22,128 bases of DNA from IMG/VR virus record IMGVR_UViG_3300020439_000092, positions 1 to 22,128 of that record; one strand, given 5' to 3'. The notes under the pieces were generated by a model, which was given only the letters and a program-made list of their open reading frames with translations, was not told the origin of the DNA and did no database searches. A program made the position numbers and the translations under genes. Below are positions 5,652-22,128 of the stretch, in pieces; within the stretch, counting starts at the first letter, position 1, and every line of letters begins with the position of its first letter. This DNA comes from a virus.

Positions 5652-5717
5652 TAGGCCGTACCTATTTTAAATGAGCTACATGCTAGACATGTTTTAGCCT
5701 CGATATAGGGCGGTCTA
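5652..5717 (+). ncRNA. Structured hairpin element, copy 6
   Basis: Outer stem TAGGCCGT 5652-5659 / GCGGTCTA 5710-5717 has two G-U pairs, then bulged A5660. The second stem is CCTAT 5661-5665 / ATAGG 5705-5709. Internal-loop strands are TTTA-AATGA-GCT (5666-5677) and TTTA-GCCTC-GAT (5693-5704). The inner stem is ACATG 5678-5682 / CATGT 5688-5692 with loop CTAGA. The 3' arm overlaps the stop codon of the minus-strand IPT/TIG gene (5715-5717). It is therefore the junction where the + and - strand operons meet; no ordinary T-tract terminator is visible there. Confidence 0.75.
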
Positions 5718-8700
5718 TACTTGTTCAGTATTAACAACTACTTCTCTACCGTCAGGGTTTATAACTTTTGTTACATAGTAGTCAACGCCGTTTAAGTTTT
5801 CTACTATAGTAAATATGGCTGAATGGTTAGAGCTGACTTGCGGGGCAGCCCTACCGCTCAAGACATTAAACTGTACTGTCGGAGAATCATGTATAATAGT
5901 GAACCTCTCGCCTGCTGTTAAACTGTCAGTAAGCACGCCTTGTAGTTTCACTAATGCGTCTTGCCCTTCTGATATTGTAAACTGTGGCACTGTAATCTGC
6001 GCGCCTGTTGAAGATGTGACAGTAAAATCTGCTTCTCCAGAATGCTGCACGGTCTGTATAAAAACTTTATCTAAATAACTAAACCCTGAGCCACTAATAT
6101 TAAACGTACTGCCAGTTGTTCCCTCGGAAACAGAGAAGTTAGGAGTCTCTAACTCTAACGCAGGTATTAGCTGCACCAACCCGCCAGATGTCGTGCTGTC
6201 TGCCTGCCCTTGGGGGCTTTGAACGACTAAGAATCCTGAGCCAGTCTCTATAGAGCCAAACGGAGGTTGAAATCTTATAACTCTATTAGATTCTGCGACA
6301 AATCCTGAAGCAGCATGCAAAGTCCCGCTTGGCTGCAGGGTGTCCCCAATGTAGCCTGAGCCAGAGAAAAACACGCCTGTAACAGGAGATAAGTTATTAC
6401 CACTTATAAAACCAGATATTCTCTTGTTGAATTTATCTCCAGTAGATATGCCAGATATAACCGGGGTAGGGTATACAATGTTGAAAAACTCATTAGTTAA
6501 TATTTTGTTTATATTTTCTTCTGTTTTACTTCCTGTGAAAGTATAGCTGCTGTCTCTATGATCTTCCCAGCTATTCAGTATAAACATCTGCCCACTTCCA
6601 GTAAAGTTGTCGCCTACGTTTAACTCTATCAAAGTTTTAGACTTACCATCATCTCCAGATGTTCTTATTTGACTTTTTATATCAAAGAAGGCGTGTTTAT
6701 CGTCACCCGTGATACCTATTACTGAATCGCCGCTTGCAAAGTCTCCGAAAGCGTTTATACCAGTTATAGATATACCCGAGCCGACATCTAAATTAAAGTT
6801 ATCATGACCACTTATGCCGGATATTGTGGCCAGCGGGAAGAAAGTTTCAGTTGTGCTTAATATAGAATCATTATTGTTGCCAGTTATTAAAATAGTAGAC
6901 GCCACGATTTCTCTTGGAACTTTTACGTCTATAGAAAAGCCTGACTCTGAAAATTTATTTGTCTGTTGAAAGTCTCCGGAAACTAAATTTCCATTTTCAT
7001 CTATAAACGCAGCATTTAGTCCTGAGAAATATTCTCCAGTTATAGTTATTTGCTCATCAAAAGTAGCATACTGTCCAGATACACCAGATACTCTTGCTAT
7101 CTTAAATTCCTGAGACCCAGTTATAGTTCTATTGAACCTATCCTTCAACCTGACGACTCCAGAAAAGTCGCTAGAGACAAGGTTCCGAGTTTCTACATTA
7201 CCTTGCTCAGGAGTAAATGTTATAACTTTTTGAGATGGCAGGTCTATAGATATTTTTGTGGAACTCTTAGAAGCAAAAGACCTTTGAGTAATATCATTTC
7301 CGTCTTTGTCGTAAAAGATTATTTCGTTTACTATATTTAAATTTTTACCTATTATATCAAGCCTATCTTTTTCCCCTAGGACTGTGTAGTCTAGGGGAGA
7401 CTTTGGCTCGGGGACAAATTTGGTTATAGAGGGCTTGTTTGGAACTATAGAAAACTTGGTATTAGATTCGCCAGTACCTCCACTTGTAGCGATTGTTATA
7501 AAATCAGTCAGCGCTCCGTTTGGTATATCAAATTGAATACCAGTTGTAGTGTTTTGAGTTATATTTAAACCTGTTAGGTCTGATATCAAAACTTGAGCGT
7601 CTTTTAAACCGCTAAAGTAACCACTAACACTTACCGTGGTTCCCTCTTCTCCAGAAGTTGGGTTAAACCCACTGACCGTTGGCTTCTTGTAAACAGATAT
7701 AGCTTCAGAAAAATTACTTGTTCCAGCTATATTGCTAACTCTAAGTTTTATTCCTGTGCTATTAAACTCTTGAGGAAACTCAAAAAAGTTTTGCGTAACA
7801 AGATCGCCACTACCAGAAACGCCAGTAGCTTTAAAGAACCCAAACTCTTCTTCTGTTACAGAATCAAAAAAGCTAATCTTAGATTGCTTCAAAAGATTTA
7901 AGCCAGTCAAAGATCCTGTAGAAAGAGGTTCTCTAGTTATGTCTGTCCCACCTTTTACGTCTTCTATAAAAGGATTGCCAACGACAAAGAAACCGCTGTC
8001 TAAAGTCTCTGATTGTCCAAATAGACCACTAGCTAATACATCAACGTGAAAAGAACCGCGCCCAGAAACCTCTCCCTCTTGCAAGCCAGAAGGAACGTTT
8101 ACCTCAAGTCTATCACCAAAAGAAGATGAAATTATACCCGTACCAGTTATATTAACCGATATGCCAGTATTATCTGACCTAGTAAGGGTTATCTTATCAA
8201 TACCTTTTAAGTCTTTTCCTGTTATACTTATCTGGGAGCCGGTTATAGAAAATTTAGGATTAGCTCCTAATACTTGAGGAACAGACCCGCTAACAATAAC
8301 TTCTTTTCCAGAGGGGTATATATCTCCTATATCACTATAAAGAGAAACAAGGTGAATACCAGATCTTAAATTTTTAGGCAGCTTTCCAGATATTAAGTTG
8401 CTATTTAAAACCCTAAAATCATCAGTGTCTCTATTTCCTACTTTTACTTTTACTCTGTTGTCGCCAGTTATGTTAAGTACCTGATTAACAAAATTTCTTC
8501 CCTCTAAAAATACAGGAGCGCCACCCAAAGCTCCAGAATCTGGAACAACTCGGTCTATCAAAGCTAAATGAGAAAAAGAGTTCTCTTCTCCAGAAGGCGC
8601 CAAAGATATACCACTTTGCAAAAAGTATGTAAAGTTACCTCTGCTTTTGCCGGTAGGGGCTGTAACCGTCAAAGAGTTTGCGGTCACGTTAGAAGGTGAA

Positions 8701-9320
8701 ACTACTTCGTTACTTAAAGGAAACTGTACTCCAGTAATAGCAGAAAAAGAATATCCAGATATCACTAACTGTTCGCTTGGCAATTGAAAGCCCGGCTCAA
8801 CAGATGTTACCTGCGGGACAGGAACAAAGTTGTCAGGCGAGATACCGCTGTTGTATAGCGCACCACCTTCACCACTTCTTAAGGATGAAAATACTGTTAC
8901 TCCTGTATATTCAGCGTCTTTAGGTATATTTACTTCTATTCTAGTTGGGGAGGCTACAGTAAAATTTGCTTTTTTAGAACCAAAGTTTACCTCTGTGATT
9001 CTATAAAAATTTTCCCCAGTCACAATTATAGGTTCATCTACAAAACCTGTTATTTTTTCTAACGGACCAACATTAATCCTGTGGTTCTCTTTAAGTAAAA
9101 CTGTTTGCTCACCAAGAGATGTTACCGCACCGTCCAGAGCAATAACATTAACGTCATCTGTTTTTATTTCTGGAGGCAAAGCCCCACTTAAACCTGTGCC
9201 AACGACAGCAAGCATTCTTTCCTCCCCTATGCTTACATCGCCCCAAACAACTTTATGAACAGCAGTTAGCTCTTCTCCGCTAATAAAAAATCCTGAGTTT
9301 GGGAAAAATATATTTGACAT
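5715..9320 (-). CDS. Giant IPT/TIG-repeat virion protein (likely tail fibre or appendage)
   Basis: This 1201-residue protein is built from about eleven Ig-like IPT/TIG-type repeats of roughly 80-110 residues. Repeats typically open with a PxVxxxxP or PxIxxxxG strand, continue with a V-x-I-x-G-x-x-F/L turn (examples: EPIIVTGENFYRITEV; QLVISGYSFSAITGV; TTVSVSGYFSGL; TFNISGSGFSYLDKV) and end with a VxVP or IxVP edge. It is unusually rich in SG and TG dipeptides at loops. There is no signal peptide; the N-terminus MSNIFFPNSGFFISGEELTAV may be the virion-attachment part, and the last 60 residues differ from the repeats. IPT/TIG domains in phages occur in fibres and decoration proteins that touch cells or glycans. 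It is the last gene of the minus-strand block, 3 nt after the stop of its neighbour. Exact virion position is unknown. Confidence 0.65.
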   Translation of the reverse strand: MSNIFFPNSGFFISGEELTAVHKVVWGDVSIGEERMLAVVGTGLSGALPPEIKTDDVNVIALDGAVTSLGEQTVLLKENHRINVGPLEKITGFVDEPIIVTGENFYRITEVNFGSKKANFTVASPTRIEVNIPKDAEYTGVTVFSSLRSGEGGALYNSGISPDNFVPVPQVTSVEPGFQLPSEQLVISGYSFSAITGVQFPLSNEVVSPSNVTANSLTVTAPTGKSRGNFTYFLQSGISLAPSGEENSFSHLALIDRVVPDSGALGGAPVFLEGRNFVNQVLNITGDNRVKVKVGNRDTDDFRVLNSNLISGKLPKNLRSGIHLVSLYSDIGDIYPSGKEVIVSGSVPQVLGANPKFSITGSQISITGKDLKGIDKITLTRSDNTGISVNITGTGIISSSFGDRLEVNVPSGLQEGEVSGRGSFHVDVLASGLFGQSETLDSGFFVVGNPFIEDVKGGTDITREPLSTGSLTGLNLLKQSKISFFDSVTEEEFGFFKATGVSGSGDLVTQNFFEFPQEFNSTGIKLRVSNIAGTSNFSEAISVYKKPTVSGFNPTSGEEGTTVSVSGYFSGLKDAQVLISDLTGLNITQNTTTGIQFDIPNGALTDFITIATSGGTGESNTKFSIVPNKPSITKFVPEPKSPLDYTVLGEKDRLDIIGKNLNIVNEIIFYDKDGNDITQRSFASKSSTKISIDLPSQKVITFTPEQGNVETRNLVSSDFSGVVRLKDRFNRTITGSQEFKIARVSGVSGQYATFDEQITITGEYFSGLNAAFIDENGNLVSGDFQQTNKFSESGFSIDVKVPREIVASTILITGNNNDSILSTTETFFPLATISGISGHDNFNLDVGSGISITGINAFGDFASGDSVIGITGDDKHAFFDIKSQIRTSGDDGKSKTLIELNVGDNFTGSGQMFILNSWEDHRDSSYTFTGSKTEENINKILTNEFFNIVYPTPVISGISTGDKFNKRISGFISGNNLSPVTGVFFSGSGYIGDTLQPSGTLHAASGFVAESNRVIRFQPPFGSIETGSGFLVVQSPQGQADSTTSGGLVQLIPALELETPNFSVSEGTTGSTFNISGSGFSYLDKVFIQTVQHSGEADFTVTSSTGAQITVPQFTISEGQDALVKLQGVLTDSLTAGERFTIIHDSPTVQFNVLSGRAAPQVSSNHSAIFTIVENLNGVDYYVTKVINPDGREVVVNTEQV

Positions 9321-9323
9321 TTT

Positions 9324-10211
9324 TTACAAGTTTAAAGGTGACCCATCTGGGAACACTGGTCTGGCTGTTGGTATTATGCCGGATGCTACTAGGTCTACCC
9401 TAGGCGTATTTGATACTATACTTAAATTATGCGTAACTTTATTTCCAACTGATGCAGATACAGATCTAGACTGAAGAACCCCAAAGCAAGAAAAGGTTTC
9501 TGTCGCCCCTGCAGCATCAGGCTCGTTGTGTCTATATAGATTTATTAAAAATTTACTTGATATACCATTGTAAGGCAAAAACCCTGTAGGGTTATCTACC
9601 TCTATTCCCATTGATACAGTTTTCTTCCCGAAATAGATTCTATCTGGAACAGTTTTTCCAGCAGAATAAACAGGATTAATTTCTGAAGAATAATTATATG
9701 AAGTATTTATAAAGTCGTTTATCTCACCCAGCAGATTACTTGATGTATTTTCTATAGTTATGTTTTTGCAGTTTAGTATTTTATCCTCAGATATAATTTC
9801 TTGGTTTTGGGTAAATTCACCTTGCAGATCGTCAAAAAACACAATTGTAGAGTTTGCTATGACCGGAGAGTTAGGTTGAAAATCTATGCTGTAACTCGAA
9901 AGATAACCGCTCGTAAAAGTCATTCCTCCGAAGCTCCCGCTAATTATTTGGCCTTCGTTACTTCTATTGTCAGAACCTATCTTCTCGCCTTGATTTGCTA
10001 TAAAGCTTTTGATTTTATCAAGTCCGCCAGTTAAGTAATGAGAAAAAGAAAGAGTAGAGCCTATACCTGCATTAGCGAAATAGTTTTTTGAGTGTCTTTG
10101 CCCAGCATCGTATCTCGGGTCTATAGAAGCCTGCACATCTAGAGAACACTGATTAGCAATTATATCTAAATCATTTAATCTAAGCTTGGTATTTTTTGAA
10201 GAGAATATCAT
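9324..10211 (-). CDS. Virion structural protein, paralogue C
   Basis: This 295-residue protein is related to its two upstream neighbours. Shared landmarks are GYLSSYSIDFQPNSP (others: LLSSYSLNLAPYSP and AYLSSYSSSCSVGEIP) and a later PVYSAGKTVPDRIYFG (others: PVYKLGQEFP; PVYAFNDKSP). It has beta-rich composition, no signal peptide and no membrane helix. The YLSSYS...P motif followed by a mixed beta domain recalls phage tail or neck-type structural proteins seen in marine phage genomes, but I cannot name a family. ATG 10209-10211 overlaps the TAA of the upstream gene by one base and has GGAG a few bases upstream. The product is probably a virion part made with the IPT/TIG protein. Confidence 0.55.
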   Translation of the reverse strand: MIFSSKNTKLRLNDLDIIANQCSLDVQASIDPRYDAGQRHSKNYFANAGIGSTLSFSHYLTGGLDKIKSFIANQGEKIGSDNRSNEGQIISGSFGGMTFTSGYLSSYSIDFQPNSPVIANSTIVFFDDLQGEFTQNQEIISEDKILNCKNITIENTSSNLLGEINDFINTSYNYSSEINPVYSAGKTVPDRIYFGKKTVSMGIEVDNPTGFLPYNGISSKFLINLYRHNEPDAAGATETFSCFGVLQSRSVSASVGNKVTHNLSIVSNTPRVDLVASGIIPTARPVFPDGSPLNL

Positions 10212-11056
10212 TAATAAAAGCTCCTTAATGTTTTAGAAGTTTCAGCGATGCCATTTGCCCCAGCAGAGATTTGACTATTATCAACGACAGCTCTTTCCAT
10301 ATTTATTTGCATCTCGCTATTATTATCTAAACTTTTTACTTTTAGTTGAAAATTTTCGTTCTTGCCAGTAAAGCTAATTCCTGTTTCGTGAACATTCTCT
10401 GTTACCCGAGCTTCTTCTGTCGCTGCATGATACAAAAATGATGATGGAAACTCTTGTCCTAGTTTATACACCGGTTCATATTCAAAATTTATAGAGTAAT
10501 CCACAGACTGAAGTATGCCCGTGGAATCTTCGCTTGAAATCGTCGCAGGAGACTGTCCTGCCATGAATGATGAAAATGCAGAATGCCCAACATTGGACGC
10601 CAAAGCTTGAACATCTGAAGACCTAGAAACTGTCTGCGACTTAAGCTCGCCGCTAACAGGAATATTTTGCCCAGAACCAAAAAGCTCAAAGTTAACGCTG
10701 CATTGAGCAGGAGAATAGGGCGCTAGATTCAAAGAGTAAGAAGACAAAAGCCCCTCGCCGCTTACGCCACCAAACTTTATTGATACCCCAGAAGTCTGCG
10801 AAGCTCTAGAATTTTTCAAACCACTAGCAATTTCATTTATAATATTTGTTCCAGTCAAAACTGGAGTATAAGAAAAAGAAACGCTAGAAGTTCTGGCTCC
10901 TTGCGGGGTCTGTTCTGACACGCCCCTAAACCCTATGGCTCTAACAGGCTGTAAATCAGCAGCCTGACTCAAAGAACAATCGTAAGCTATAATTTTTTCA
11001 GTATTAGCACCAAACTCTAGGGTCAGAGGTATTTTGTCGTATCTAATGGAAGCCAT
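10211..11056 (-). CDS. Virion structural protein, paralogue B
   Basis: This 281-residue member of the three-gene paralogue set has SYTPVLTGTNIIN near residue 70, GEGLLSSYSLNLAPYSPAQ near 105-125, and EPVYKLGQEFPSSFLY near 200-215. It is Ser/Gly-rich and beta-rich, without signal peptide or membrane segment. A GAGGT Shine-Dalgarno lies in the end of the upstream gene, whose stop is 2 nt before this start, so translation is probably coupled. Similar length and the same order of landmarks in B and C suggest gene duplication within the operon. Function in the virion is inferred from the context of tail genes and the repeat-rich fibre-like protein. Confidence 0.55.
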   Translation of the reverse strand: MASIRYDKIPLTLEFGANTEKIIAYDCSLSQAADLQPVRAIGFRGVSEQTPQGARTSSVSFSYTPVLTGTNIINEIASGLKNSRASQTSGVSIKFGGVSGEGLLSSYSLNLAPYSPAQCSVNFELFGSGQNIPVSGELKSQTVSRSSDVQALASNVGHSAFSSFMAGQSPATISSEDSTGILQSVDYSINFEYEPVYKLGQEFPSSFLYHAATEEARVTENVHETGISFTGKNENFQLKVKSLDNNSEMQINMERAVVDNSQISAGANGIAETSKTLRSFY

Positions 11057-11057
11057 A

Positions 11058-11861
11058 TTACCTCAATATTGCACCTTTCATTGTGAAGTTTATTTGCACG
11101 TTAGAGTTATTATCGGCAGAGTATTGTTCTGAGACCAAAATCATATCACTAAATGAAAAAGTCTGTATGTTTGAAGTAGAGTTATTTTCATTTATTATCA
11201 AACTTACATCTTTGAATACAGTCTCCTCTGGAATAAATCTCATGTTTTTAATTTTGTAATCATCTAGCTCTATGCTAAATTGCATTGTCACATCAAGAGG
11301 AGAATCAGAAACGACTTCAGATGGAGACTTATCGTTAAAGGCATAAACAGGCGTTCTAGGCGTTTGTATATCCAAAGAGTAACTTAGTACCCTATTGGTA
11401 TTAAACTCGTCTAAATTGATGCTTATAGAGTTGTATCCTGCTATTTTTAGCTCTGTATCGTGAGGTGTGGTTGCTCCAAAGTCAAAAAAGTTCCCTGTGC
11501 CTAACTCTCCGTATATTTCCGCCTGCATACCCAAGGTGGGTATTTCTCCTACAGAACAAGAAGATGAGTAGGAAGAAAGGTAAGCTTCTGTAAATTTAGT
11601 TGTTTGACTTCTGTAATCTACTTGTCCACTAAAAGGCAGCTCCCCTGTGAACTGAAGAAAAAAATCATCATGAACTAACAAGCTTTCAACCGAAATTGAC
11701 GCTGTCTGTGGCGAGGTGGGAGCATAGATTATCTGCTCTAAACCTAAAGAATTTATAGGAGAAGCTGAGGTTTCATACCCAAAAGAAATACTCTGAACAG
11801 CATTTATTCCTGTCCCGTTTACCGCCAACTTTTGGTTTTCTCGCCTAACCCTTGATAACAT
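11058..11861 (-). CDS. Virion structural protein, paralogue A
   Basis: This 267-residue protein is the first gene of the minus-strand block. Landmarks are QSISFGYETSASPIN near residue 25, AYLSSYSSSCSVGEIPTLGMQ near 95-115, and TPVYAFNDKSPSEV near 170-185, aligning with paralogues B and C. The SSYS-x5-GEIPTLG form is the most typical of what I have seen in phage structural proteins, so A may be closest to the ancestral version. There is no signal peptide or membrane helix. ATG 11859-11861 has no clear Shine-Dalgarno. The gene is divergent from the tail M-like gene across 50 bp. Confidence 0.55.
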   Translation of the reverse strand: MLSRVRRENQKLAVNGTGINAVQSISFGYETSASPINSLGLEQIIYAPTSPQTASISVESLLVHDDFFLQFTGELPFSGQVDYRSQTTKFTEAYLSSYSSSCSVGEIPTLGMQAEIYGELGTGNFFDFGATTPHDTELKIAGYNSISINLDEFNTNRVLSYSLDIQTPRTPVYAFNDKSPSEVVSDSPLDVTMQFSIELDDYKIKNMRFIPEETVFKDVSLIINENNSTSNIQTFSFSDMILVSEQYSADNNSNVQINFTMKGAILR

Positions 11862-11911: not shown

Positions 11912-12487
11912 ATGGCTGACGAGAATAGTATTTACAATATAACAGAATACGACAACTCTTTAAATTATAGCAAAGACGATATCGTTGCTGTCTTTGAGAG
12001 GTTCTCTTCTTTTAGTGTGCCAAAGACCGTAAAATACTACTACAGCTTAACAAGCAGCAATCAAGGCAACACTCCGGCGGCAGACTCTATCTATTGGGGC
12101 GGGGTTACAAGTCTGAACGGCTCTACAAAATCAAAATTTATTTGGTCTCCATCATATAATTTACAAGCAAATCATAAACCAAGAGTAAACTCCGTTGTTT
12201 TTGGTAACGGCTACGAACAAAGGTTCCAAGACGGTATATTTAACGACCTAATAACCATAAATGTCAAATTTGAACACAGAGACATAAAAGAAGCTAGGGC
12301 GATAAATCATTTCCTTAAATCAAGAAAAGCTGTTGAATCTTTTATCTTTGAAGATTTGCCAGAACCTCACAACGATTTAGTTTCGGCGGGCTACAGAAAA
12401 ATGTTTGTTTGTAAAAGCTGGACGAGTGAGTTTGTATTTTATAACAATTATACTATTACTGCAGACTTCGAACAAACTAATACTTAA
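11912..12487 (+). CDS. Minor tail protein M-like with N-terminal carbohydrate-binding-like module
   Basis: Residues about 80-191 carry the tail M-type domain: FIWSPSYNLQANHKPRVNS, VVFGNGYEQRFQDGIFND, and a beta-rich end with the WTSEFVFYNNYTITADFEQ strand. The FG(N/D)GYEQR motif is the hallmark of phage minor tail protein M and related proteins. Residues about 8-65 form an extra domain (YDNSLNYSKDDIVAVF, YYYSL, NQGNTPAADSIYWGG) that matches the Y..GD.V...Y......N.G..P......W pattern of family 5/12 carbohydrate-binding modules. Lambda M is shorter (about 109 residues) and has no such domain. A good Shine-Dalgarno (AGGAATAAGGA) precedes ATG 11912. The gene starts the tail-tip run M-L-K-I-J. Confidence 0.8.
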   Translation: MADENSIYNITEYDNSLNYSKDDIVAVFERFSSFSVPKTVKYYYSLTSSNQGNTPAADSIYWGGVTSLNGSTKSKFIWSPSYNLQANHKPRVNSVVFGNGYEQRFQDGIFNDLITINVKFEHRDIKEARAINHFLKSRKAVESFIFEDLPEPHNDLVSAGYRKMFVCKSWTSEFVFYNNYTITADFEQTNT

Positions 12488-12492
12488 ACACA

Positions 12493-13689
12493 ATGCCCGA
12501 AGGTAGTTACGATATAGTAGATAAAGAGCAAGCAAAGAAGTCAATTAAGTCTTTGATGCATGAATTGACGAACTTAACACCTTCGTCTTTAATGACTCTT
12601 TTTGAGATAGACTTTACAAATGTAGTTCAGTCTATAAACTCTAGCCTAGTAAAAGACTCTAATGAAATAGGTCTCTTTCCTAATTTTGAGCAAGGTAAAG
12701 AAAACATTTTAAGATTTCATAATAATATAAAAGTGTTTAACTCTTACATAATTTGGCAAGGCAAAACTTTTTTCCCTGCGCCAATTATGGCAGAAGGTTT
12801 TGAAATAACCTCTCGCGGCGTCTTGCCCAGCCCCACCTTAAGTCTTAGCTCCCAAACAGAAGAAGGCATAGAAGCTCTATCTATTATAAGAAGAGTTATT
12901 AGAAAGTATGGAGATATAGTAGGCGCTAAAGTAACGAGGATAAGAACTTTTGCTAAATTTTTAGATAAGAATAATTTTTCTGATATCTCTAGCCCAGATT
13001 CACAAAGAGGCATATATGCTTCAAATTTTCCAGAAGAATACGAACCAGACCCTTATGCAGAATTACCTAGGGACGTCTTCTTTGTGGAAAGAAAAGCTAG
13101 CGAAGACAAAAACTCTATTAATTATGAACTAAGCTCTTCGTTAGATGTAGAGGGCGTTAAGCTTCCCAGAAGGGTTGTTACAGCTTCTAAGTGCGGTTTT
13201 ACTTATAGAGGCTGCGGTTGTTTCTATGAAGGCGATGGAAACTCTGCTCAATCTTTAGCTGACCACGTATATAAAAAATGCGGCATTAGGAGAACAGATT
13301 TAACTTTGCCGGAAGATGCGCCCCCTGTAGCTACAATAAATGACCAAAACATAAAAGATATGATAGGAGTTTCTGAGTTTGTATTTAAAGGAAGATACTC
13401 CAGCAAAGCTTTTTATGAATCTGGAGACTACATCTATATGGAGAAGAACGGTATTAGATATTACTTTGTTGCAAAAGTTGATATCCCAGCCACAGAAAAT
13501 ACTGAGTACTCTCCTCCTAACCCTGATTTTTGGATAGCAGATCTATGCTCTAAAACTCTACAGGGGTGCAGAAAAAGATGGGGCACACAAGGCTCTGTCG
13601 TCATAGGAGAAAGTGAAGACTTTAAGAAAGGGGAGCTTCAGTTTGGCGGGTTTCCTAATGCTACTAAACTAGAACAAAACGCAAGATGA
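12493..13689 (+). CDS. Minor tail protein L-like, iron-sulfur type, with inserted carbohydrate-binding-like module
   Basis: This 398-residue protein follows the M-like gene by 5 nt. The C-terminal half carries the L-type cysteine set: C234-x8-C243 and C352-x6-C359 (SKCGFTYRGCGC and LCSKTLQGCRKRWG). In lambda L the four iron-sulfur ligands have the same two spacings (x8, then x6), so a 4Fe-4S cluster is likely. Additional Cys at 241 and 263 are also present. The gap between the pairs is 108 residues here against about 22 in lambda. The insert contains FKGRYSSKAFYESGDYIY, GIRYYFVAKVD and PPNPDFWIAD, again a family 5/12-like carbohydrate-binding pattern. The N-terminal half matches the usual L layout (LFEIDFTN, IIWQGKTFFPAPIMAEGFEITSRG). 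L caps the tail tip near J. The stop overlaps the K-like gene start. Confidence 0.85.
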   Translation: MPEGSYDIVDKEQAKKSIKSLMHELTNLTPSSLMTLFEIDFTNVVQSINSSLVKDSNEIGLFPNFEQGKENILRFHNNIKVFNSYIIWQGKTFFPAPIMAEGFEITSRGVLPSPTLSLSSQTEEGIEALSIIRRVIRKYGDIVGAKVTRIRTFAKFLDKNNFSDISSPDSQRGIYASNFPEEYEPDPYAELPRDVFFVERKASEDKNSINYELSSSLDVEGVKLPRRVVTASKCGFTYRGCGCFYEGDGNSAQSLADHVYKKCGIRRTDLTLPEDAPPVATINDQNIKDMIGVSEFVFKGRYSSKAFYESGDYIYMEKNGIRYYFVAKVDIPATENTEYSPPNPDFWIADLCSKTLQGCRKRWGTQGSVVIGESEDFKKGELQFGGFPNATKLEQNAR

Positions 13690-14429
13690 TTTTAGATAAA
13701 GAAAATCGTGAATTTATCAAAAATCACGCTTTGGAAGACACTCCCAAAGAATGTTGCGGTTTTTTATATTCAGACGAAGACACCGGCCTAGTAAAAACTA
13801 AAAAAGCCAGAAACATAGCTAAGGAAAAAAATATTTCTTTCTCTGTTGATACTTTAGATTATTTTAAAACTTCTAATCTCGGGCAAATAAAAGCTATTTA
13901 TCATTCTCACACAAACGGTAATCCAGATTTTTCTCTCAAAGATAAAGAAGACAGCCTCAAACATAAAATAGACTTTGTTTTGTATGATTTAACTTCTGAT
14001 ACTTTTAAAGTCTTCAGGCACGAACATGAAAAAATAGAAATTTTAGAAAAAAAATTTAAGTGGGGAGAGTCTGACTGCATATCTTTAGTTCAGGACTACT
14101 TAAATAAATCAGTTGGGTATAATCTGCTACTGCCTAAATCTTTAAACGATAGAGATTCTAAATGGCGTGCTAAATCAAAAAGTTTTGTTGAGGAAACATT
14201 TGAGTTAAATAAAAAAAATTTAATAAAAGTTTCTTTTAATACAATAGAAGATTTAAAACAAGGTGACATCCTATGTTTTTCTATAAAAGATAATGTGGAT
14301 CACTTTGGCGTATATATTTCAAACAATAATTTTCTCCACCACAAAATAGGTAGAAGACCTAATTGTGAAAAGATTGATAAATATTTTAAGAATTTAACTC
14401 AAGTGTATAGATATAACAATGGACGATAA
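13686..14429 (+). CDS. Tail protein K-like: JAMM peptidase plus NlpC/P60 domain
   Basis: This 247-residue two-domain protein is typical of lambda K. Residues 1-115 form a JAMM/MPN metalloprotease: E22 (PKECCGFLY), then H73-S-H75 with x7, S83, x2, D86, an intact E...HxH-x7-S-x2-D zinc motif. Residues 120-247 form an NlpC/P60 hydrolase, with Cys130 in KWGESDCISLVQDYL and His206 in DHFGVYISNNN, followed by FLHHKIGRR. In phages this pair cleaves peptide cross-links in peptidoglycan at the tail tip and takes part in tail assembly. The ATG overlaps the stop of L by ATGA, and the 3' end overlaps the I-like gene by 11 nt. No key residue is missing. Confidence 0.9.
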   Translation: MILDKENREFIKNHALEDTPKECCGFLYSDEDTGLVKTKKARNIAKEKNISFSVDTLDYFKTSNLGQIKAIYHSHTNGNPDFSLKDKEDSLKHKIDFVLYDLTSDTFKVFRHEHEKIEILEKKFKWGESDCISLVQDYLNKSVGYNLLLPKSLNDRDSKWRAKSKSFVEETFELNKKNLIKVSFNTIEDLKQGDILCFSIKDNVDHFGVYISNNNFLHHKIGRRPNCEKIDKYFKNLTQVYRYNNGR

Positions 14430-15351
14430 ACTAACAACTATAAAATTTCACGGGGAGCTAGGCAAAGCTATCGGCAGAGAAATTTGGAAACTCTCCGTAA
14501 ATTCTGTTAGTGAGGCTATGAAAGCTGTGCAAGAGCAGACTAAAAAACTTTATACAAACTTGATTGAGAATGATAAGAAAAATATTAAATATAGAGTTCT
14601 TATAAACGGTAAAGATTTTGTCCACGATACTTCCAGAAATATTAACGAACTAGAAGGCGTGGAACACTCTGAATTAGTTTTAAAAAGAGATTTAGAAACT
14701 ATTGACGTCATTCCTGTCATTGAAGGGGCCGGAAGCGACGCATTTACTACTATACTAGGAGCCGTTTTAGTAGTGGCAAGTTTTTTTGTAGCTGGCCCCA
14801 TGGGCGCGGCTTTGCTTATGGCGGGCATTGGCCTTATGGCAGCAGGTATAGCTAACCTGCTTACACCCATGCCAGAGTTTGAAGATTTTAGACAGATAGA
14901 AGGCGGTGGGCGTCCGTCTTTTCTATTTACTGGCCCCGCCAATACAGTAAGAGAAGGTGGGCCAGTTTTCGTAGGCTATGGAAGACTTTTAGTTGGGAGT
15001 CATGTCATACAATCAAGCATAGAAACCAAAGACCAAAAAAATGGCAACTATATGAACAGGTCCGCAGATAAATTAACTTTCGTGCCTTTCAAAAACTATT
15101 GGGGCTACGACGGTTACGGACTCGACTATGGCAATAACTTAAAAGACAAGTCCGGTAACCCTACCCTAGGAGACACTGTTATGAAAACTAGGGCAGAGCA
15201 AGTGAGTAAATCAGATGGCTCTCCAGATGAGTGTGACCCTACTAATAATTATGTTAGTTCAACTGTGCCCGATAACACTATAATAGTAAGCAACGGTGAC
15301 GACTACATTACAGTAGGAAATGAAATTAAAATAGAAGCTAAAGAAAGATAA
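14419..15351 (+). CDS. Tail assembly protein I-like
   Basis: This 310-residue protein has an N-terminal ubiquitin-like fold (TTIKFHGELGKAIGREIWKL, then NSVSEAMKAVQEQ and KYRVLINGKDF), as in phage tail assembly protein I. The middle (residues about 103-150) is a Gly/Ala-rich hydrophobic stretch, with IEGAGSDAFTTILGAVLVVASFF and GPMGAALLMAGIGLMAAGIANLL. Then comes the typical EGGGRPSFLFTGPANTVREGGPVFVGYGRLLVGS motif. I is used in tail-tip assembly with J and, in lambda, is not retained in the virion. The last 100 residues are longer than in lambda I (223 residues), rich in D, N and G, and not recognised. The start has no good Shine-Dalgarno and lies inside the K-like gene. Confidence 0.85.
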   Translation: MDDKLTTIKFHGELGKAIGREIWKLSVNSVSEAMKAVQEQTKKLYTNLIENDKKNIKYRVLINGKDFVHDTSRNINELEGVEHSELVLKRDLETIDVIPVIEGAGSDAFTTILGAVLVVASFFVAGPMGAALLMAGIGLMAAGIANLLTPMPEFEDFRQIEGGGRPSFLFTGPANTVREGGPVFVGYGRLLVGSHVIQSSIETKDQKNGNYMNRSADKLTFVPFKNYWGYDGYGLDYGNNLKDKSGNPTLGDTVMKTRAEQVSKSDGSPDECDPTNNYVSSTVPDNTIIVSNGDDYITVGNEIKIEAKER

Positions 15352-15352
15352 T

Positions 15353-18300
15353 ATGGGTAAAAAGGATCCACGCGTATCAAGACCGCCTATTACAGATGAA
15401 GCAGGTGTTTTTCATTCTGGAGAAACAGGATTATACTCTGCGGTAAGCGAAGTTGTTATTGCTGACTTAATCTGCGAAGGCGAAATAGAAGGTATTGTTA
15501 GCGGAGAATATAGATTCCAAGGGCAGGAAGGTAATGTAGGATATGATGATTCAAAATTTACAGCTTACACAGCGCTAGATGAAAACGGTAACTGTAAAAC
15601 TGACTTAGGCTTTTTACGCTCAGTTTACTGGAATGAAGTTCCTGTCGTTGATAAAGATGGCTTTTATAATTTTCAAGAAGTAAATTTAAACTGGGTTAAA
15701 GGTATACCGCAAGGAGAAATACCCTCCCTTAACGACAGTCTACCTAATCAAGCAAACTCTAAAGGTGTTAATGATTTTGAGCTTTCTGTTTTTAGGTCTT
15801 TAGGAGACAGACTTTTTGGTCCTTCTATAGACCTTTCTACTCCAGAAAAAACGCCGGGGTATAGGTCTCCTAAATTAGTTGAAAATACTAATAACGATTA
15901 TAACAAAGCTTATGGCTCAGAAGACTTTGGCGGAGGTGGCGAAGAAGAAGTTAATAATCCGCCAACTTTACTTGGGGAAATAGACAGAAATGCAAAAGTA
16001 TATAATGTCTTAAATAAAGAGTGTGTCGCCATACAAGTCAATATAAAGATTCCTAGATTGATGGAAACTCTTTTTGACGACCCTTATGATAACGCTATTG
16101 TTCCGCCACAAGGCAAAGGCAGGCAGAGCTTTTTCGACAAAAAAGAAAAGCATCAAAACGCACAGCTCACATTTGGCCAAGGCGATCAAAAGGCTAGAAA
16201 AATTAGATATCAAATATACACTAGACCTGTATACGATACAAGAAACATTATAACTAGCTCAGATACTGCAAAAACTCCCAGCGCAGAAGATTTATTTGTT
16301 CCATGGAAAAGTATTCCTGATGTGGACGACGTAATCTTCGGTAAAATAGAAGAACCGTATTTAAGAAGTGTTGAGATAGACTTTAGAAAAGGCATTTGGA
16401 AAAAAGAAAACCCAAGAGATAGTAAATTTTATAAATACTTTCAAGGCTGGGAAATTAAAATTATCCGCCTCACCCCTGACTCTGTTCATTCCTATCTTAA
16501 AAATGAATCTTTTGTAGATTCTATAGTAGAAATATACGACTCTGTAATTAGATATCCATACTGCAGTATGGTTTATTCTAAATTTAATGCAGAATTTTTC
16601 AGCAGGCTGCCTAGCAGAGCCTATGAAACAAAATTACAAAAAGTAAAAATACCCAACACCTATGACCCTATACTAAGAACTTATACAGAACCTTTAGGGT
16701 ATTGGGATGGTTGTTTTGAAGCTAGAAAAGAGTGGACAAATAACCCTGCGTGGTGTTTTTACGATTTAATTACCAATAACAGATACGGCTTAGGTGAGTA
16801 TATAGATAGTGACATTGTTGACAAGTGGACACTGTATGAAATAGCTAAATATTGCGACGTACTTGTTGCTGATGGCAAAGGTGGACTTGAGCCCAGATTC
16901 ACTCTTAATCATATTATCACATCTAGAGAAGAAGCTTATAAAGTTGTAAATGATTTAGCATCTGCGTTCAGAGCTATAGTTTATTTTGCTTTTGGCGGCA
17001 TATATGTTTCTCAAGATAGGCCAAAGCTGCCTATTTATCTTTTTAACAACTCTAATGTTGTAGATGGTAACTTTGTATATTCTTCGTCGGCAAAACGAGC
17101 TAGACATACGGTAGCTATTGTTAGATACAATGACAAAAATAATCTTTACCAACCTTCTATATGTTATACCGAAGACCAACTTGGTATACAAAGATATGGA
17201 ATTAAAGAGATAGAGACTAGCGCCATAGGATGCACAAGCGAAGGCCAAGCAAAAAGATTTGGTGAGTGGATACTAAGAAGTGAAGTTTTGCAAACAGAAA
17301 CTGTAGCATTTACAGCAGGCAACGAAGGTAACTACATCAGGCCCGGAGATGTTATTACAATATATGATGAGTTTAGAAATGACAGAAAGCTGGCAGGCAG
17401 AACTTTAAAAGTTGAAGAAACTGCGACTGGCGTTATACCCAGCGGCCTATATTCAACTTATGACAGAGCAGATGACAACGGGTCAATGCTTGTTACGGGC
17501 AATGCAATAGTCATAGATAAGCCTATACATTTTGTTCCTGATACAGAGTACAAGCTATCAATACTGACACCAACTAACTATTATGAAGCTTCTCAAATAA
17601 CTCCTTCTAATTGCGTCGAAGATGTAACTTTAGAAACAACTACTGAGACCGAAGGCGAAAATATAACAGAAGAAATTGAAACTGTTATAGATTCTCCAGT
17701 TAACCTTTTTTCTTTAGAGGACACATCGCCCAAGTCTCCCGGCATGAGTCTAGCAGGCAGATTAAGCGATAACTTTAATGACAGCATAGATAACACTAAT
17801 ATTTTTACGACTACTAAAACTATTAGCGTTGCAGAAGGTAAAGCAGAGTTTTCTTTTGGCTTTAGCTCTTATCAAAACGGCGCCAAGAAAAAAGAATATT
17901 TCGACGGTAAAGTAAGAGAAAGCTCTAAGCCCGGGTTTCCTAAAAGAATAGTTATTGAAGACCAAGATGGAAATGTAATAGCAGAAACTAAATATATAGG
18001 AGCAGAAACTCAATCAATAATGCAATTAGGCGGAGTAAGAACCGCTAGAGCTCAAACGCAGCTTAGAGAAAAAGCTCAAAAACAAATGACCCACGGAGAG
18101 GGTGCAATTCGCGAAGGAGCTCAAATTAGTACTAGAAGAAACGGTGATATATTTGACTGTTTACAGTTTTACAGCACCGACCCCGACGTCTCTGATGAAA
18201 CTAGATCTTTGGCACAAGAAGAAATAGCTTACTTAGACGCTAAAGAAGATGCTTTTAGTCACCGCATACCTTTTAGCGCTAATGTGCATCAGTCAAGCAA

Positions 18301-21259
18301 TAAAAGCTCTGAGAACTTATTGCTAATTAATAGTGCAAAACAAATATCTCTTAAATTTATAAAACCTGCAGGGGTCACCTCTCTTGTAGTAAAAGTCATA
18401 CATCCTATTACAGCTTATGCTGCTGCTACAGACGTAAACAAGCTACACCTTAGTTCTAGAGTTGAATATAGAGAAACTACGCCATCTCAACCCACTACTG
18501 CATTTCAAGATATTTTTCAATTTAATCACATTAAAAAAGTTAAAACCTTTGAAACTAGAACTAGAACAGCAAGCGAAACAAAGACCACTACCGTAGAAAC
18601 TATAACGGTTAGCGCAGACAATACAGACGAAGCTTTAACTTCTGCCGACTATCCAGAGATAAGAAAAAATCAAGTTCAGAATATTTACTTTAGTGGTTTT
18701 CAGGCTTTACCTTTCACTGGAAATTATCATTCAGATTTTTCAGTCAGCGGTAGTGGCATAGTAACAAAAATATTTTTTGACAGCTTACATCAAAGCGGGC
18801 TTGATTTCACTGGGTACTCTATTACTGGGTACAACAACTCTTCTGTTATAGGAGACTTGGCCGCTGGTAACACAGGTGCTTACTCTTCTGAATATACTAA
18901 TCCAGATGGAGCTAACTTAATTTGGTCTATAGAACCCAGATATAAAGATAAGACGAGGAATAGAAATTACACTCTCAATGACGAACTAGCTTCTGGAGAA
19001 CAGCAAACTTTTAAAGTTGTAAATATTATTGAGAATGATAGCAAGTATGATATTACAGCTATAGAGCATAATATGGAAGTATACGAATCTACTGCACCGC
19101 CTGTGGTAGATTATGGCTCGAGCATAGGCGGCCCTGTTGAAAACGTAAGAGTTGATGAAAACGATGTAGAAAAGCCTAACGAAACAGAAGAAAAGAAGAC
19201 CCCTCCTCCTTTCGAATATGATCCATCTGATGAAGGGGCGTGCTGTGTTAGTAACGGAGATACAAACTCTTGCTTTAATAACTTAAAAAGAAGTGAATGT
19301 GATGAGCTTAAAGGGGAGTTTTATAAAGACAGAAGCTGCAAAGATATTCAAGAAGAGGGAATATGTGTTAAGCCTACCGAGATAACTGAACCTAAACCAG
19401 AAACGCCTGTCAACTTTACAAACGAAAGGTTCTTCCCAATGAAGTTTAAACTAAATATTAATTTAGGAGACTTCAGCCCCTCTCAAGGATTAGAGGACCA
19501 AGTTGCTAGCAATTACAAAATCAAACCTGTAAACGACGAAGATGTGTTTGGTAATATGTCTACAGAAGCCAACCAACAAGCAGCTTTGGATTATTACAAC
19601 TCATTAACTTATTTTGCCAATCGCGGCGAATCCTTTTATTTTGAGTACTCTGAAAAAACAGATCAGTATGGAGACTTTTACTTAGTTGATAGAAAACTAG
19701 CTTTCGATAATGAATCTGACGCTATAGCAGGCAGCAGGCTTAGATATGTCGTAGATGATTATTGCGAGCATAGCCAAGAGTATCTTGAGTCCCTAGGATA
19801 TGTCGTGGTTGATAGAGTTTTCCCCGCCTCCTACGGGTTGAGAGACTTAACTAAAGAGTCTTTAAGAACAATAGAGTGGGACGACTCTGTTACAGCAAAA
19901 GACAAATGTAATGATCCAAAAGATAATACCCATATAGGCCATGCTTTTAATGGAGACTATAGCGCAGAAAATATAAAAAATGGCAATGTATACTGGGTTG
20001 CTCCACCTAATCAAAAATACAAAGTTTTGATACAACACGCGCTTTATGTTTTCCCAGATTTTCTAAGAGATGACGACGGAAACGTAATTCCTGTAGAGAG
20101 AAGAGATGAAGCCACTAAAGATATACGCGACTTTTCTTTTTCAAATCTTAGCTCTAATCGTCAACAAGAAAATGGAAAACTTGCCTATCAAGAGGGATGC
20201 TTATGTGATGCCGATGATAGTTATGAACCTTTTGCGGACGTTAATTTTGAGTATATTGATGCAATAGTCGACAAATCTGAACAAACTCAAAAAATAGTAA
20301 AAAATTATGCAGACTTTGCTAAATTAAACTTCTGCGGAGAAAACTACAACGAAGATTTTGAGTTTACCTTCTTTCCAAAAACTACTTTTAGCAACAAAGC
20401 CCAATATAACTCTATTCTAGAAAAAGGTGATAAAGAGCTTTTGGACTACATACACCCCGGTCAATATGCCATGTTTACAGTAAGCGTTTCTCCTGAGTTT
20501 GATTTAGATTCAGCGGGCGAAGTGCTAGATTGCCATGACCAAAACGGCTATAGATATACTTTCGCTGTTAACTTGAACGATATACCTTCACTGTTACCGG
20601 GAGAAGCTAACACATGCAATCAGTCTCCAGCCGTGGTACTTAATCACCCAGAAGCTGATAACACTAGAGTAGATTCCAAGATAGCTCCAAAATTATATAA
20701 AACACCTAAAGACTACATAGACAAATACTTTGTTACTGTAGATGACTATACAGAAAAAGGAATATCTACTTCTACCTATATGCCTGTTGAGTATCCCGGA
20801 AAGATAAAAGTTACTCATGACCAAGACGGAAACGTAGTTGCAGACGACAGAACAGAGTGTCTGTACGTTAGAGGTCTTGAAACCAGAGAAGATAATGATA
20901 AAAGAAAATATAAAACTGAAGAAGGCAGAGGTATAGATGTTAACTCAGATAACTCTTCGAAACTAACTACATCGTTTACTTTTGGCCACGGCCTAAATGA
21001 TTCTGGGTTAACAATGGTTGATGGCTATCTTGCTGTAAATGATTGCAAAGAATACAATAGTGTCGACCTACAAGGAACTACAATCAAAAGCTATAACGTG
21101 CATATAGATTTAGCTCCTTCCTTTAAACATACCCAAATAGCCTCAACCTCAACTAGCTTGTTTTATGAAGGTAATATAGAAGATGACAGATCTGACAACC
21201 CTTCTGACCCAGAAACCGGAACAGAGAAAATAGTACCAAGAAGATTTTCAGACCAATAA
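15353..21259 (+). CDS. Tail tip host-attachment protein J-like, enlarged
   Basis: At 1968 residues it is much longer than lambda J (1132). The N-terminal part is typical: EVVIADLICEGEIEGIVSGEYRF near residues 33-55, a Trp-rich core with WTNNPAWCFYDLITNNRYGLGEYI near 460-485, VNDLASAFRAIVYFAFGGIYVSQDRP near 533-558, and EGNYIRPGDVITIYDE near 658-675. Later parts diverge. There is a Ser/Gly-rich beta region near 1105-1185 (IYFSGFQALPFTGNY) and a Pro/Glu linker. A Cys-rich module follows at about 1296-1340 (GACCVSNG, CFNN, SECDELKGEFYKDRSC, GICVKP). The last 600 residues are unrecognised and probably contain the receptor-binding part. Three loops of type D-x-D-G-N-V occur near residues 870, 1573 and 1822 and could bind calcium. 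It ends 2 nt before the next virion gene. Confidence 0.85.
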   Translation: MGKKDPRVSRPPITDEAGVFHSGETGLYSAVSEVVIADLICEGEIEGIVSGEYRFQGQEGNVGYDDSKFTAYTALDENGNCKTDLGFLRSVYWNEVPVVDKDGFYNFQEVNLNWVKGIPQGEIPSLNDSLPNQANSKGVNDFELSVFRSLGDRLFGPSIDLSTPEKTPGYRSPKLVENTNNDYNKAYGSEDFGGGGEEEVNNPPTLLGEIDRNAKVYNVLNKECVAIQVNIKIPRLMETLFDDPYDNAIVPPQGKGRQSFFDKKEKHQNAQLTFGQGDQKARKIRYQIYTRPVYDTRNIITSSDTAKTPSAEDLFVPWKSIPDVDDVIFGKIEEPYLRSVEIDFRKGIWKKENPRDSKFYKYFQGWEIKIIRLTPDSVHSYLKNESFVDSIVEIYDSVIRYPYCSMVYSKFNAEFFSRLPSRAYETKLQKVKIPNTYDPILRTYTEPLGYWDGCFEARKEWTNNPAWCFYDLITNNRYGLGEYIDSDIVDKWTLYEIAKYCDVLVADGKGGLEPRFTLNHIITSREEAYKVVNDLASAFRAIVYFAFGGIYVSQDRPKLPIYLFNNSNVVDGNFVYSSSAKRARHTVAIVRYNDKNNLYQPSICYTEDQLGIQRYGIKEIETSAIGCTSEGQAKRFGEWILRSEVLQTETVAFTAGNEGNYIRPGDVITIYDEFRNDRKLAGRTLKVEETATGVIPSGLYSTYDRADDNGSMLVTGNAIVIDKPIHFVPDTEYKLSILTPTNYYEASQITPSNCVEDVTLETTTETEGENITEEIETVIDSPVNLFSLEDTSPKSPGMSLAGRLSDNFNDSIDNTNIFTTTKTISVAEGKAEFSFGFSSYQNGAKKKEYFDGKVRESSKPGFPKRIVIEDQDGNVIAETKYIGAETQSIMQLGGVRTARAQTQLREKAQKQMTHGEGAIREGAQISTRRNGDIFDCLQFYSTDPDVSDETRSLAQEEIAYLDAKEDAFSHRIPFSANVHQSSNKSSENLLLINSAKQISLKFIKPAGVTSLVVKVIHPITAYAAATDVNKLHLSSRVEYRETTPSQPTTAFQDIFQFNHIKKVKTFETRTRTASETKTTTVETITVSADNTDEALTSADYPEIRKNQVQNIYFSGFQALPFTGNYHSDFSVSGSGIVTKIFFDSLHQSGLDFTGYSITGYNNSSVIGDLAAGNTGAYSSEYTNPDGANLIWSIEPRYKDKTRNRNYTLNDELASGEQQTFKVVNIIENDSKYDITAIEHNMEVYESTAPPVVDYGSSIGGPVENVRVDENDVEKPNETEEKKTPPPFEYDPSDEGACCVSNGDTNSCFNNLKRSECDELKGEFYKDRSCKDIQEEGICVKPTEITEPKPETPVNFTNERFFPMKFKLNINLGDFSPSQGLEDQVASNYKIKPVNDEDVFGNMSTEANQQAALDYYNSLTYFANRGESFYFEYSEKTDQYGDFYLVDRKLAFDNESDAIAGSRLRYVVDDYCEHSQEYLESLGYVVVDRVFPASYGLRDLTKESLRTIEWDDSVTAKDKCNDPKDNTHIGHAFNGDYSAENIKNGNVYWVAPPNQKYKVLIQHALYVFPDFLRDDDGNVIPVERRDEATKDIRDFSFSNLSSNRQQENGKLAYQEGCLCDADDSYEPFADVNFEYIDAIVDKSEQTQKIVKNYADFAKLNFCGENYNEDFEFTFFPKTTFSNKAQYNSILEKGDKELLDYIHPGQYAMFTVSVSPEFDLDSAGEVLDCHDQNGYRYTFAVNLNDIPSLLPGEANTCNQSPAVVLNHPEADNTRVDSKIAPKLYKTPKDYIDKYFVTVDDYTEKGISTSTYMPVEYPGKIKVTHDQDGNVVADDRTECLYVRGLETREDNDKRKYKTEEGRGIDVNSDNSSKLTTSFTFGHGLNDSGLTMVDGYLAVNDCKEYNSVDLQGTTIKSYNVHIDLAPSFKHTQIASTSTSLFYEGNIEDDRSDNPSDPETGTEKIVPRRFSDQ

Positions 21260-21261
21260 AC

Positions 21262-22128
21262 CATGTCTAAAAAAATAAACATATACTGGGACTCGTATAA
21301 CGGAGAAAATGACGAGTATGATTATAAAGAGTACGATGAGTTTATACTTTTGGTCAAGTTTGGCACTGACTTTTCTTCTACTACTTTTTCATCTCAAAAG
21401 TCTGAAACAGAACAGAACAATATAGATAACGGATTAGGGGGAACTTTTTTTACTATTGATGGAAGAGATTTTCTTACCTCTTCTCCAAATGACGAGAACT
21501 TAAAACTAGAAGATTTTCAAACTTACAAGTTTACATATTTCGCAGAAAAGACGGGCAGGTATTTCTTTTCTATTTGGTCTGTATTAGATGGTAAATTTTT
21601 TGGGCCAGTTTACTACCCGCCGAGACAAGATCAAGACGCTGTGGACGCAGATAGCTCGGGCAGCACAGGAAGCAGCGAAGGCGGTGTTAAAGTAGACGAT
21701 GACGTTGATGCTGTGGACATTACGGAACAGTTGAAGATATACGCATTGACGTTGAACGGAGAAGCAGAAGGTTTAGACGGAAGTCCTGCTAGTAAACAGA
21801 TAGGAGACAATACAAGTGTTGCAAAAATAAGAAATGAAGACAGCCCCTCTTTTACCTACAAAGCGTCTGCGCCTCCGTCTGCTGCCTCTAATTTAACTTT
21901 CAAGGGACTAACTAGAGCCACCATAAGAGAAGTAAGCCCCAACAATCAGCCGAGTCCTAACATACTTTATGAATTTTACAACCAAGACTTGATCAAGGGA
22001 GAGTTTATTTTTTCTTCTTTTTTTAATTCAGAGATAGGAATAAAAAATATACCAGAAGGTGAAACGCATCATAAAGATGAAGAAAATAGTTTCGTCGTAA
22101 CAAATAAACTTAAAAAAGAAAAGCTGCC
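21262..22128 (+). CDS. Virion protein downstream of J, incomplete
   Basis: ATG 21262 follows the J stop by 2 nt, and the frame stays open to the window end (289 codons visible). The protein starts MSKKINIYWDSYNGEND, then a beta-rich domain with FILLVKFGTDFSS and FTYFAEKTGRYFFSIWSVLDGKFFGPVYYPP, which reads like an Ig or fibronectin-like strand pattern. A D/S/G-rich linker (residues about 125-150) is followed by DITEQLKIYALTLNGEAEG and more beta segments. There is no signal peptide. Place and composition suggest a tail-tip or fibre protein working with J. The end is missing, so total length and domain order are unknown. Confidence 0.6.

Follow-up and report, generated by a model that had tools for sequence, protein, structure and literature searches.

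The iron-sulfur site of gpL, the hub protein of the phage lambda tail tip, is said to have been described originally by Tam in 2013. The four cysteines of gpL (Cys173, Cys182, Cys205 and Cys212) follow an x8, 22, x6 spacing (PMC10721106), and in two other described systems the hub has an extra domain between the cysteine segments. The RcGTA hub (Rcc01696) carries there a domain named oligosaccharide-binding, and its description counts six oligosaccharide-binding sites in the distal tail proteins and three in the hubs, with a proposed role in aiding capsule passage (PMC7296036); the R4C hub (vBDshSR4C_014) is likewise described with an oligosaccharide-binding domain between the cysteine segments (PMC10276861). 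Lactococcal, streptococcal and other phages are reported to have "evolved" distal tail and Tal proteins with added small carbohydrate-binding-type modules, which are often BppA-like and lie inside a galectin domain (PMC7291167). For Alishewanella phage LSH1, a gpM homologue with an N-terminal galactose-binding-like decoration is reported, together with a gpL C-terminal region that is called hypervariable (PMC13243795) and lacks cysteines for a cluster. CBM-decorated tails and a sugar-binding-type domain in the hub slot (RcGTA, R4C) are therefore already known, and the new element of the present analysis is a marine phage clade with a smaller, seemingly different predicted fold in the hub slot and the same predicted fold on the neighbouring ring. 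In those parts of the open-licence PMC literature that were searched, no description was found of a gpL-type hub with a CBM5/12-type domain in its Fe-S loop.

The DNA analysed here, hereafter the window, is the IMG/VR virus record IMGVR_UViG_3300020439_000092 at its full length of 22,128 bases. Its plus strand carries a lambda-type tail-tip operon with genes for an M-like distal tail protein (11912-12487, 191 aa), an L-like hub protein (12493-13689, 398 aa), a K-like protein with JAB and NlpC/P60 domains (13686-14429), an I-like protein (14419-15351) and a J-like protein (15353-21259). This arrangement resembles phage lambda (gpM and gpL, 8iyk) and the T1 tail tip (9l9p), with a tail-tube-fold distal tail protein, a hub consisting of an HDI domain and a four-cysteine Fe-S domain with x8 and x6 spacings, and K, I and J genes downstream. 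Beside the M-like gene, on the minus strand at 5715-11861, are four genes, one encoding 1201 aa, that showed weak TIG-like or virion-structural matches; no Pfam match above cut-off and no convincing PHROG family was found for any of the four. Additionally, positions 12984-22128 of the window are 100% identical to the end of NZWA01000041.1, a 76,987-base contig in a Flavobacteriales MAG bin, and a link to a Flavobacteriales host is uncertain because the membership of this contig may come from binning.

The L-like protein matches lambda gpL (8iyk_L) with an E value of 1.7e-13 by phmmer, and a Pfam scan placed PF05100 on residues 71-264 (E 2e-33). Its cysteines are C234, C241, C243, C263, C352 and C359, of which C234-x8-C243 (13192..13221, plus strand) and C352-x6-C359 (13546..13569, plus strand) form two pairs separated by 108 residues, whereas the corresponding loop of lambda gpL has 22. 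An insertion exactly between the two cysteine pairs (C243 and C352), with the lambda gpL spacings of x8 and x6 left intact, had been claimed in an earlier note made from the DNA alone, and both points were borne out. The PF05100 match and the four cysteines at these spacings identify the protein as a lambda gpL-type hub, and the conserved cysteines suggest that it binds a 4Fe-4S cluster. The inserted stretch begins with a variable linker (residues 244-292; 13222..13368, plus strand) that contains a conserved APPVAT..D stretch and is 47-151 residues long with a mean pairwise identity of 0.39 among 51 clade sequences. The last approximately 59 of the 108 residues form the module itself (residues 293-351; 13369..13545, plus strand), for which a CBM5/12-like fold is predicted and in which Y308, P341, P342 and W347 are invariant among the 51 sequences. 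Downstream of the second pair is a conserved C-terminal LQFGGFPNA segment (13636..13662, plus strand), and outgroup L proteins have the same segment 3' of their second pair. When the clade profile was aligned with 97 outgroup L sequences (alignment probability 100), both ends of the old loop stayed beside the cysteines and the middle of the outgroup loop faced VATIND of the APPVATIND stretch in the window, a hint that the module was inserted between this stretch and the second cysteine pair.

In the M-like protein, PF05939 (E 9e-19; PHROG 14) is restricted to residues 75-189 (12134..12478, plus strand), and the predicted model of this core aligns structurally to lambda gpM with a Z of 12.4; the family match and the modelled tail-tube fold together identify a lambda gpM-type distal tail protein. 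The N-terminal module that the earlier note had attributed to this protein was recovered at residues about 5-64 (11924..12103, plus strand), 5' of the PF05939 core, and it too has a predicted CBM5/12-like fold. Y42-Y44 and W62 are invariant in this module among 44 sequences. Lambda M, in contrast, has 109 aa and no N-terminal module. DUF2460, to which the distal tail protein of R4C belongs, was weakly listed for 17 of the 44 clade M proteins (best E 0.0018), and on account of these weak matches the clade may form a link between lambda gpM and the GTA-type distal tail proteins.

To place the two additions, L loci of the clade were collected from IMG/VR with the window L as query (75 loci) and with the L alignment (the best 80 of 576), two sets that overlap; the outgroups comprise 72 loci of bacterial genomes and two IMG/VR sets, each retrieved with its own outgroup query and limited to 80 loci (out of 162 and 272), and one of the outgroup sets (outgroup B) consists largely of close relatives. 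The overlap reduces 148 clade L loci to 95 distinct frames and 139 M loci to 84. The gap between the cysteine pairs was 22 residues in all 219 outgroup loci that were measurable (67 of 68, 73 of 80 and 79 of 80), compared with 106-215 in all 95 distinct clade frames, the strict motif being matched in 148 of 152 clade loci; gaps were left unmeasured in 9 of 228 outgroup and 4 of 152 clade loci. For M, the residues before the core were counted from the first methionine, and an extension of at least 50 residues was found in 134 of 139 clade loci (84 distinct frames) but in none of the 189 outgroup loci (0/45, 0/69 and 0/75). Three of the five short clade M proteins are cut by a contig end, and the other two, on one contig, have an interrupted frame. 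Since both counts separate the clade from the outgroups, the M and L additions mark one and the same clade and define it; likewise, the contention that lambda M and L lack such modules held for lambda and extended to the measured outgroup loci. A gap of 201 residues in one of 68 bacterial outgroup loci was set aside as mis-paired cysteines, as a shortest-gap rule reads 22 in all measured loci, and a permissive rule that read 33 in two clade L loci gave way to the strict motif, which reads 106-215 in all 148 matched loci. A frameshift or assembly artefact was rejected because 95 distinct frames, drawn from many metagenomes, share the architecture.

Within the clade the modules evolve faster than the cores, with pairwise identities of 0.42 against 0.60 in L and 0.45 against 0.59 in M. 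Searches of 50,697 phage records, from which very near relatives may be absent, found no single place covering 80% of the window L among 416 matching records, or 80% of the L of a relative among 573; for the window M, none of 119 matching records reached 80% cover. With the M of a relative as query (284 matching records), one place in a Salmonella phage covers 83% at 25% identity, and the L module by itself matched phage records only at E 2 or worse.

The two modules also resemble each other. Comparison of the L and M module profiles with hhalign gave a score of 41.2 (probability 95), whereas 100 column shuffles reached at most 20.4 and profile windows not overlapping a module at most 15.1. 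HMMs of the modules, run over 1823 frames of the fetched loci, strongly found 75 L and 66 M frames, each detected members of the other set at E 0.0015-0.005, and no third kind of frame with the module was found among these 1823. Combined with a common strand, IKYYF in one and IKYYY in the other, the score beyond the controls and the cross-detection make homology, that is two copies of one module, the simplest reading of the sequences.

Structure prediction of both proteins, which the earlier note had proposed as a check, placed the modules in a CBM5/12 fold. For L, the AlphaFold2 model from 51 clade sequences was poor as a whole (mean pLDDT 47.7), although residues 281-350 reached block means of 73-91; for M, 44 sequences gave a mean pLDDT of 76.6 with block means of 77-89 over residues 11-70. 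Realignment against the PDB gave 50 listed rows for L, and every one of the first 25 spans the module. Of these 25, 21 are chitinases or deacetylases of chitin oligosaccharides, representing about seven proteins, and the other four are tail proteins of phages or injection systems. The matched parts of the enzymes are presumably their CBM5/12 domains, judging from the nature of these enzymes and from the residue ranges. The best rows were a tail fibre of cyanophage A-1(L) (Z 6.9, rmsd 1.3 over 50 residues) and, jointly, a GH18 chitinase (Z 6.9, rmsd 2.6 over 51 residues). For residues 9-77 of M the match is a Vibrio deacetylase (9jeo; Z 6.2, rmsd 1.2 over 46 residues), the one module row (rank 24) among the 50 listed for M. 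The Foldseek lists, which are ordered by the whole model, were headed for L by the lambda and T1 hub proteins followed by low-scoring cereblon chains, and the M and BFVD lists were headed by tail-tube cores; in the L list, the A-1(L) tail fibre was the single later module match visible (rank 40, E 1.5). A Z of 6-7 is middling for the alignment tool used and can mean merely a common arrangement. Despite this, the uniform identity of the matched rows led to acceptance of the fold call, and both modules likely have the CBM5/12 (chitin-binding) fold.

The sequences give this call less help. The pattern Y..GD.V...Y........P....W, which the earlier note read in both proteins, is literally absent from both: L has YESGDYI...YYF...PP...W, in which I replaces V, and M has YSKDDIV...YYY...P...W, in which D replaces G, with spacings in each case that differ from the pattern of the note. 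The pattern by itself is weak because shuffling the residues 20,000 times reproduced a loosened form of it in 140 cases for L and 165 for M, and the claim rests on conservation and the predicted fold. A signature pattern for the clade, written after the alignment was seen, fits 94 of 95 L frames and misses L141; in L058, from the same contig, S replaces the signature W. In Pfam scans of the window proteins, the alignments and the module slices, PF02839 (CBM_5_12) was not matched above its cut-off; matches below it came from two of 51 L proteins (best E 0.29), from three of 42 L modules (0.065) and from one of 31 M modules (0.05). A six-frame search of 24 virus records with PF02839 gave none over the cut-off. 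Profile searches of PDB sequences returned no significant match for either module, the best for L being an Anabaena injection-system baseplate protein (E 0.5) and M yielding nothing credible. When the module profiles were compared with PF02839 stretches from bacterial genomes, the similarity was slightly above that of 150 shuffles (L 20.8 against 17.1; M 19.8 against 17.0), and this weak match aligns the W....Y..GD.V segment.

In CBM5/12 domains, an aromatic pair (WW or YW) after the second strand serves as the ligand platform. Of 20 PF02839 stretches aligned for comparison, one of which (L233) contributes three residues, 19 were usable and 12 of these are over the cut-off; the pair is present in 9 of the 19, including 8 of the 12. 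At the homologous loop, the canonical pair was found in 0 of 95 clade L frames, and at M positions 45-50 no aromatics were found in 31 sequences. Other aromatics are strongly conserved, in L at 302, 308, 313, 315, 323-325, 346 and 347 and in M at 8, 19, 42-44 and 62, and some of these surely serve the core of the modules. The description of the modules as carbohydrate-binding-like in the earlier note was therefore upheld for the predicted fold and not for the sequence, which has no CBM_5_12 match over the cut-off and no canonical aromatic pair. The note had also named, as evidence that would speak against it, the same inserts in all homologues without an aromatic face; here the outcome is divided, as the inserts are clade-wide and the canonical pair is absent, whereas ordinary L and M homologues have no insert and other aromatics are conserved. 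As a separate observation, CBM_5_12 stretches below the cut-off are found 4-5 kb downstream of L, in large frames of one Xanthomonas and one Stenotrophomonas prophage (L231, L232); they are also without the aromatic pair, and by position their host frames are J-like.

The preferred explanation is that the distal tail ring and the hub ring of a lambda-type tip are each decorated with a small domain of the CBM5/12 fold, the two domains being homologous: M carries its copy at the N-terminus, and L in a surface loop of the iron-sulfur domain. With six gpM and three gpL as in lambda, 6+3 module copies would be arranged around the tip; this copy number and the surface exposure would follow by analogy. 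The modules would make weak multivalent contacts with polysaccharide of the host surface, and the J protein would find the final receptor. Decoration is favoured by the L gap of 106-215 against 22, by an extended M in 134 of 139 clade loci and none of 189 outgroup loci, by the predicted fold and the relatedness of the modules, and by the published oligosaccharide-binding sites of RcGTA and R4C; the faster evolution of the modules fits it without proving binding. Overall, a CBM-decorated tip that makes weak multivalent contacts with the host surface has about an even chance of being the correct account. Sugar binding is plausible, and glycan contact may be one function of the modules; this part of the explanation is the weaker one because of the missing CBM_5_12 match, the loose pattern and the absent aromatic pair. 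Caution is also advised because the carbohydrate-binding module of the phage A-1(L) neck fibre is reported not to bind its own host (PMC10966104).

The same absence of the canonical pair, together with the strong conservation of core-type aromatics, is what would be expected if the CBM5/12-like fold were a building block that binds no sugar, the M and L modules packing on each other, on J or on side fibres as a structural collar that stiffens or sizes the tip. This main rival also draws on the co-occurrence of the modules throughout the clade and their homology to each other. It is nevertheless rather unlikely, as both sequence and length are more variable in the modules than in the cores and the modules occupy the sites of decorations described for RcGTA, R4C and LSH1 (PMC7296036, PMC10276861, PMC13243795). 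Contact with a cell partner other than sugar, such as a surface protein or lipid, or docking of phage proteins such as side fibres, would accord with the CBM5/12-like folds of tail fibres in phages and of one injection-system baseplate, where a ligand is not evident; the enzyme relatives of the fold are, however, chitin-active, and this reading is improbable. Finally, the fold call itself could be wrong, the modules being other small beta domains (e.g., SH3-like) that resemble CBM5/12 by convergence. Single members weakly match SH3 models and the Z values are middling, but chitin-active enzymes fill nearly all of the top rows, with an rmsd of 1.3-2.7 over 45-51 residues at ranks 1-14 of the L list, and the weak PF02839 profile match aligns the same W....Y..GD.V segment, leaving such an error highly improbable.

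Returning to the decorated tip, each described relative differs from it in some respect. The predicted fold is like that of the CBM5/12 domains of chitinases and chitin-oligosaccharide deacetylases, which the modules do not match at the family level in sequence and whose aromatic pair they lack. Compared with the evolved Dit and Tal proteins, the clade has a CBM5/12-like module at the N-terminus of an M protein that lacks a galectin domain, and an insert in the Fe-S loop of L, and LSH1 differs from it in the fold of the decoration. Like the RcGTA and R4C hubs, the window L has an extra domain between the two cysteine segments. The R4C hub, however, is PF09931 plus PF09356, whereas PF05100 is the sole family listed for the window L at E up to 1; by eye the R4C insert sequence has no Y..GD.V..YY..P..W signature. 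The clade shares the RcGTA and R4C layout, with a seemingly different, smaller fold in the hub slot.

A broader and distinctly unlikely proposal is that lambda-type hubs use their four-cysteine Fe-S site as a socket for unrelated surface-probing domains, of which this clade would carry a matched 6+3 set. The cluster would staple both ends of an outward loop, such that domain inserts leave the hub undisturbed. At least three inserts would have used this socket, namely the CBM5/12-like module of the clade, a second extra domain in five loci and the GTA-type oligosaccharide-binding domain; in the clade, one and the same module would have been fitted both into the socket and onto the distal tail ring. 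If true, the proposal gives a function to the conserved but unexplained hub cluster. The 22-residue and the filled loops are also a natural experiment on the role of the Fe-S domain, which the lambda structure paper left open, and the two small domains are directly testable for host-surface binding.

Further variation was seen in the L proteins. The five loci with a second extra stretch (L033, L037, L118, L121 and L129) carry it between the first cysteine pair and APPVAT; it is Gly/Ser-rich, of the GSGTGALFSV...GYAVGDTLTF type, and extends the L loop to 206-215 residues. In two Stenotrophomonas prophages (L220, L221), a different insert of roughly 180 residues lies in the L HDI domain after LDA.NF, and the Fe-S loop stays at 22 residues.
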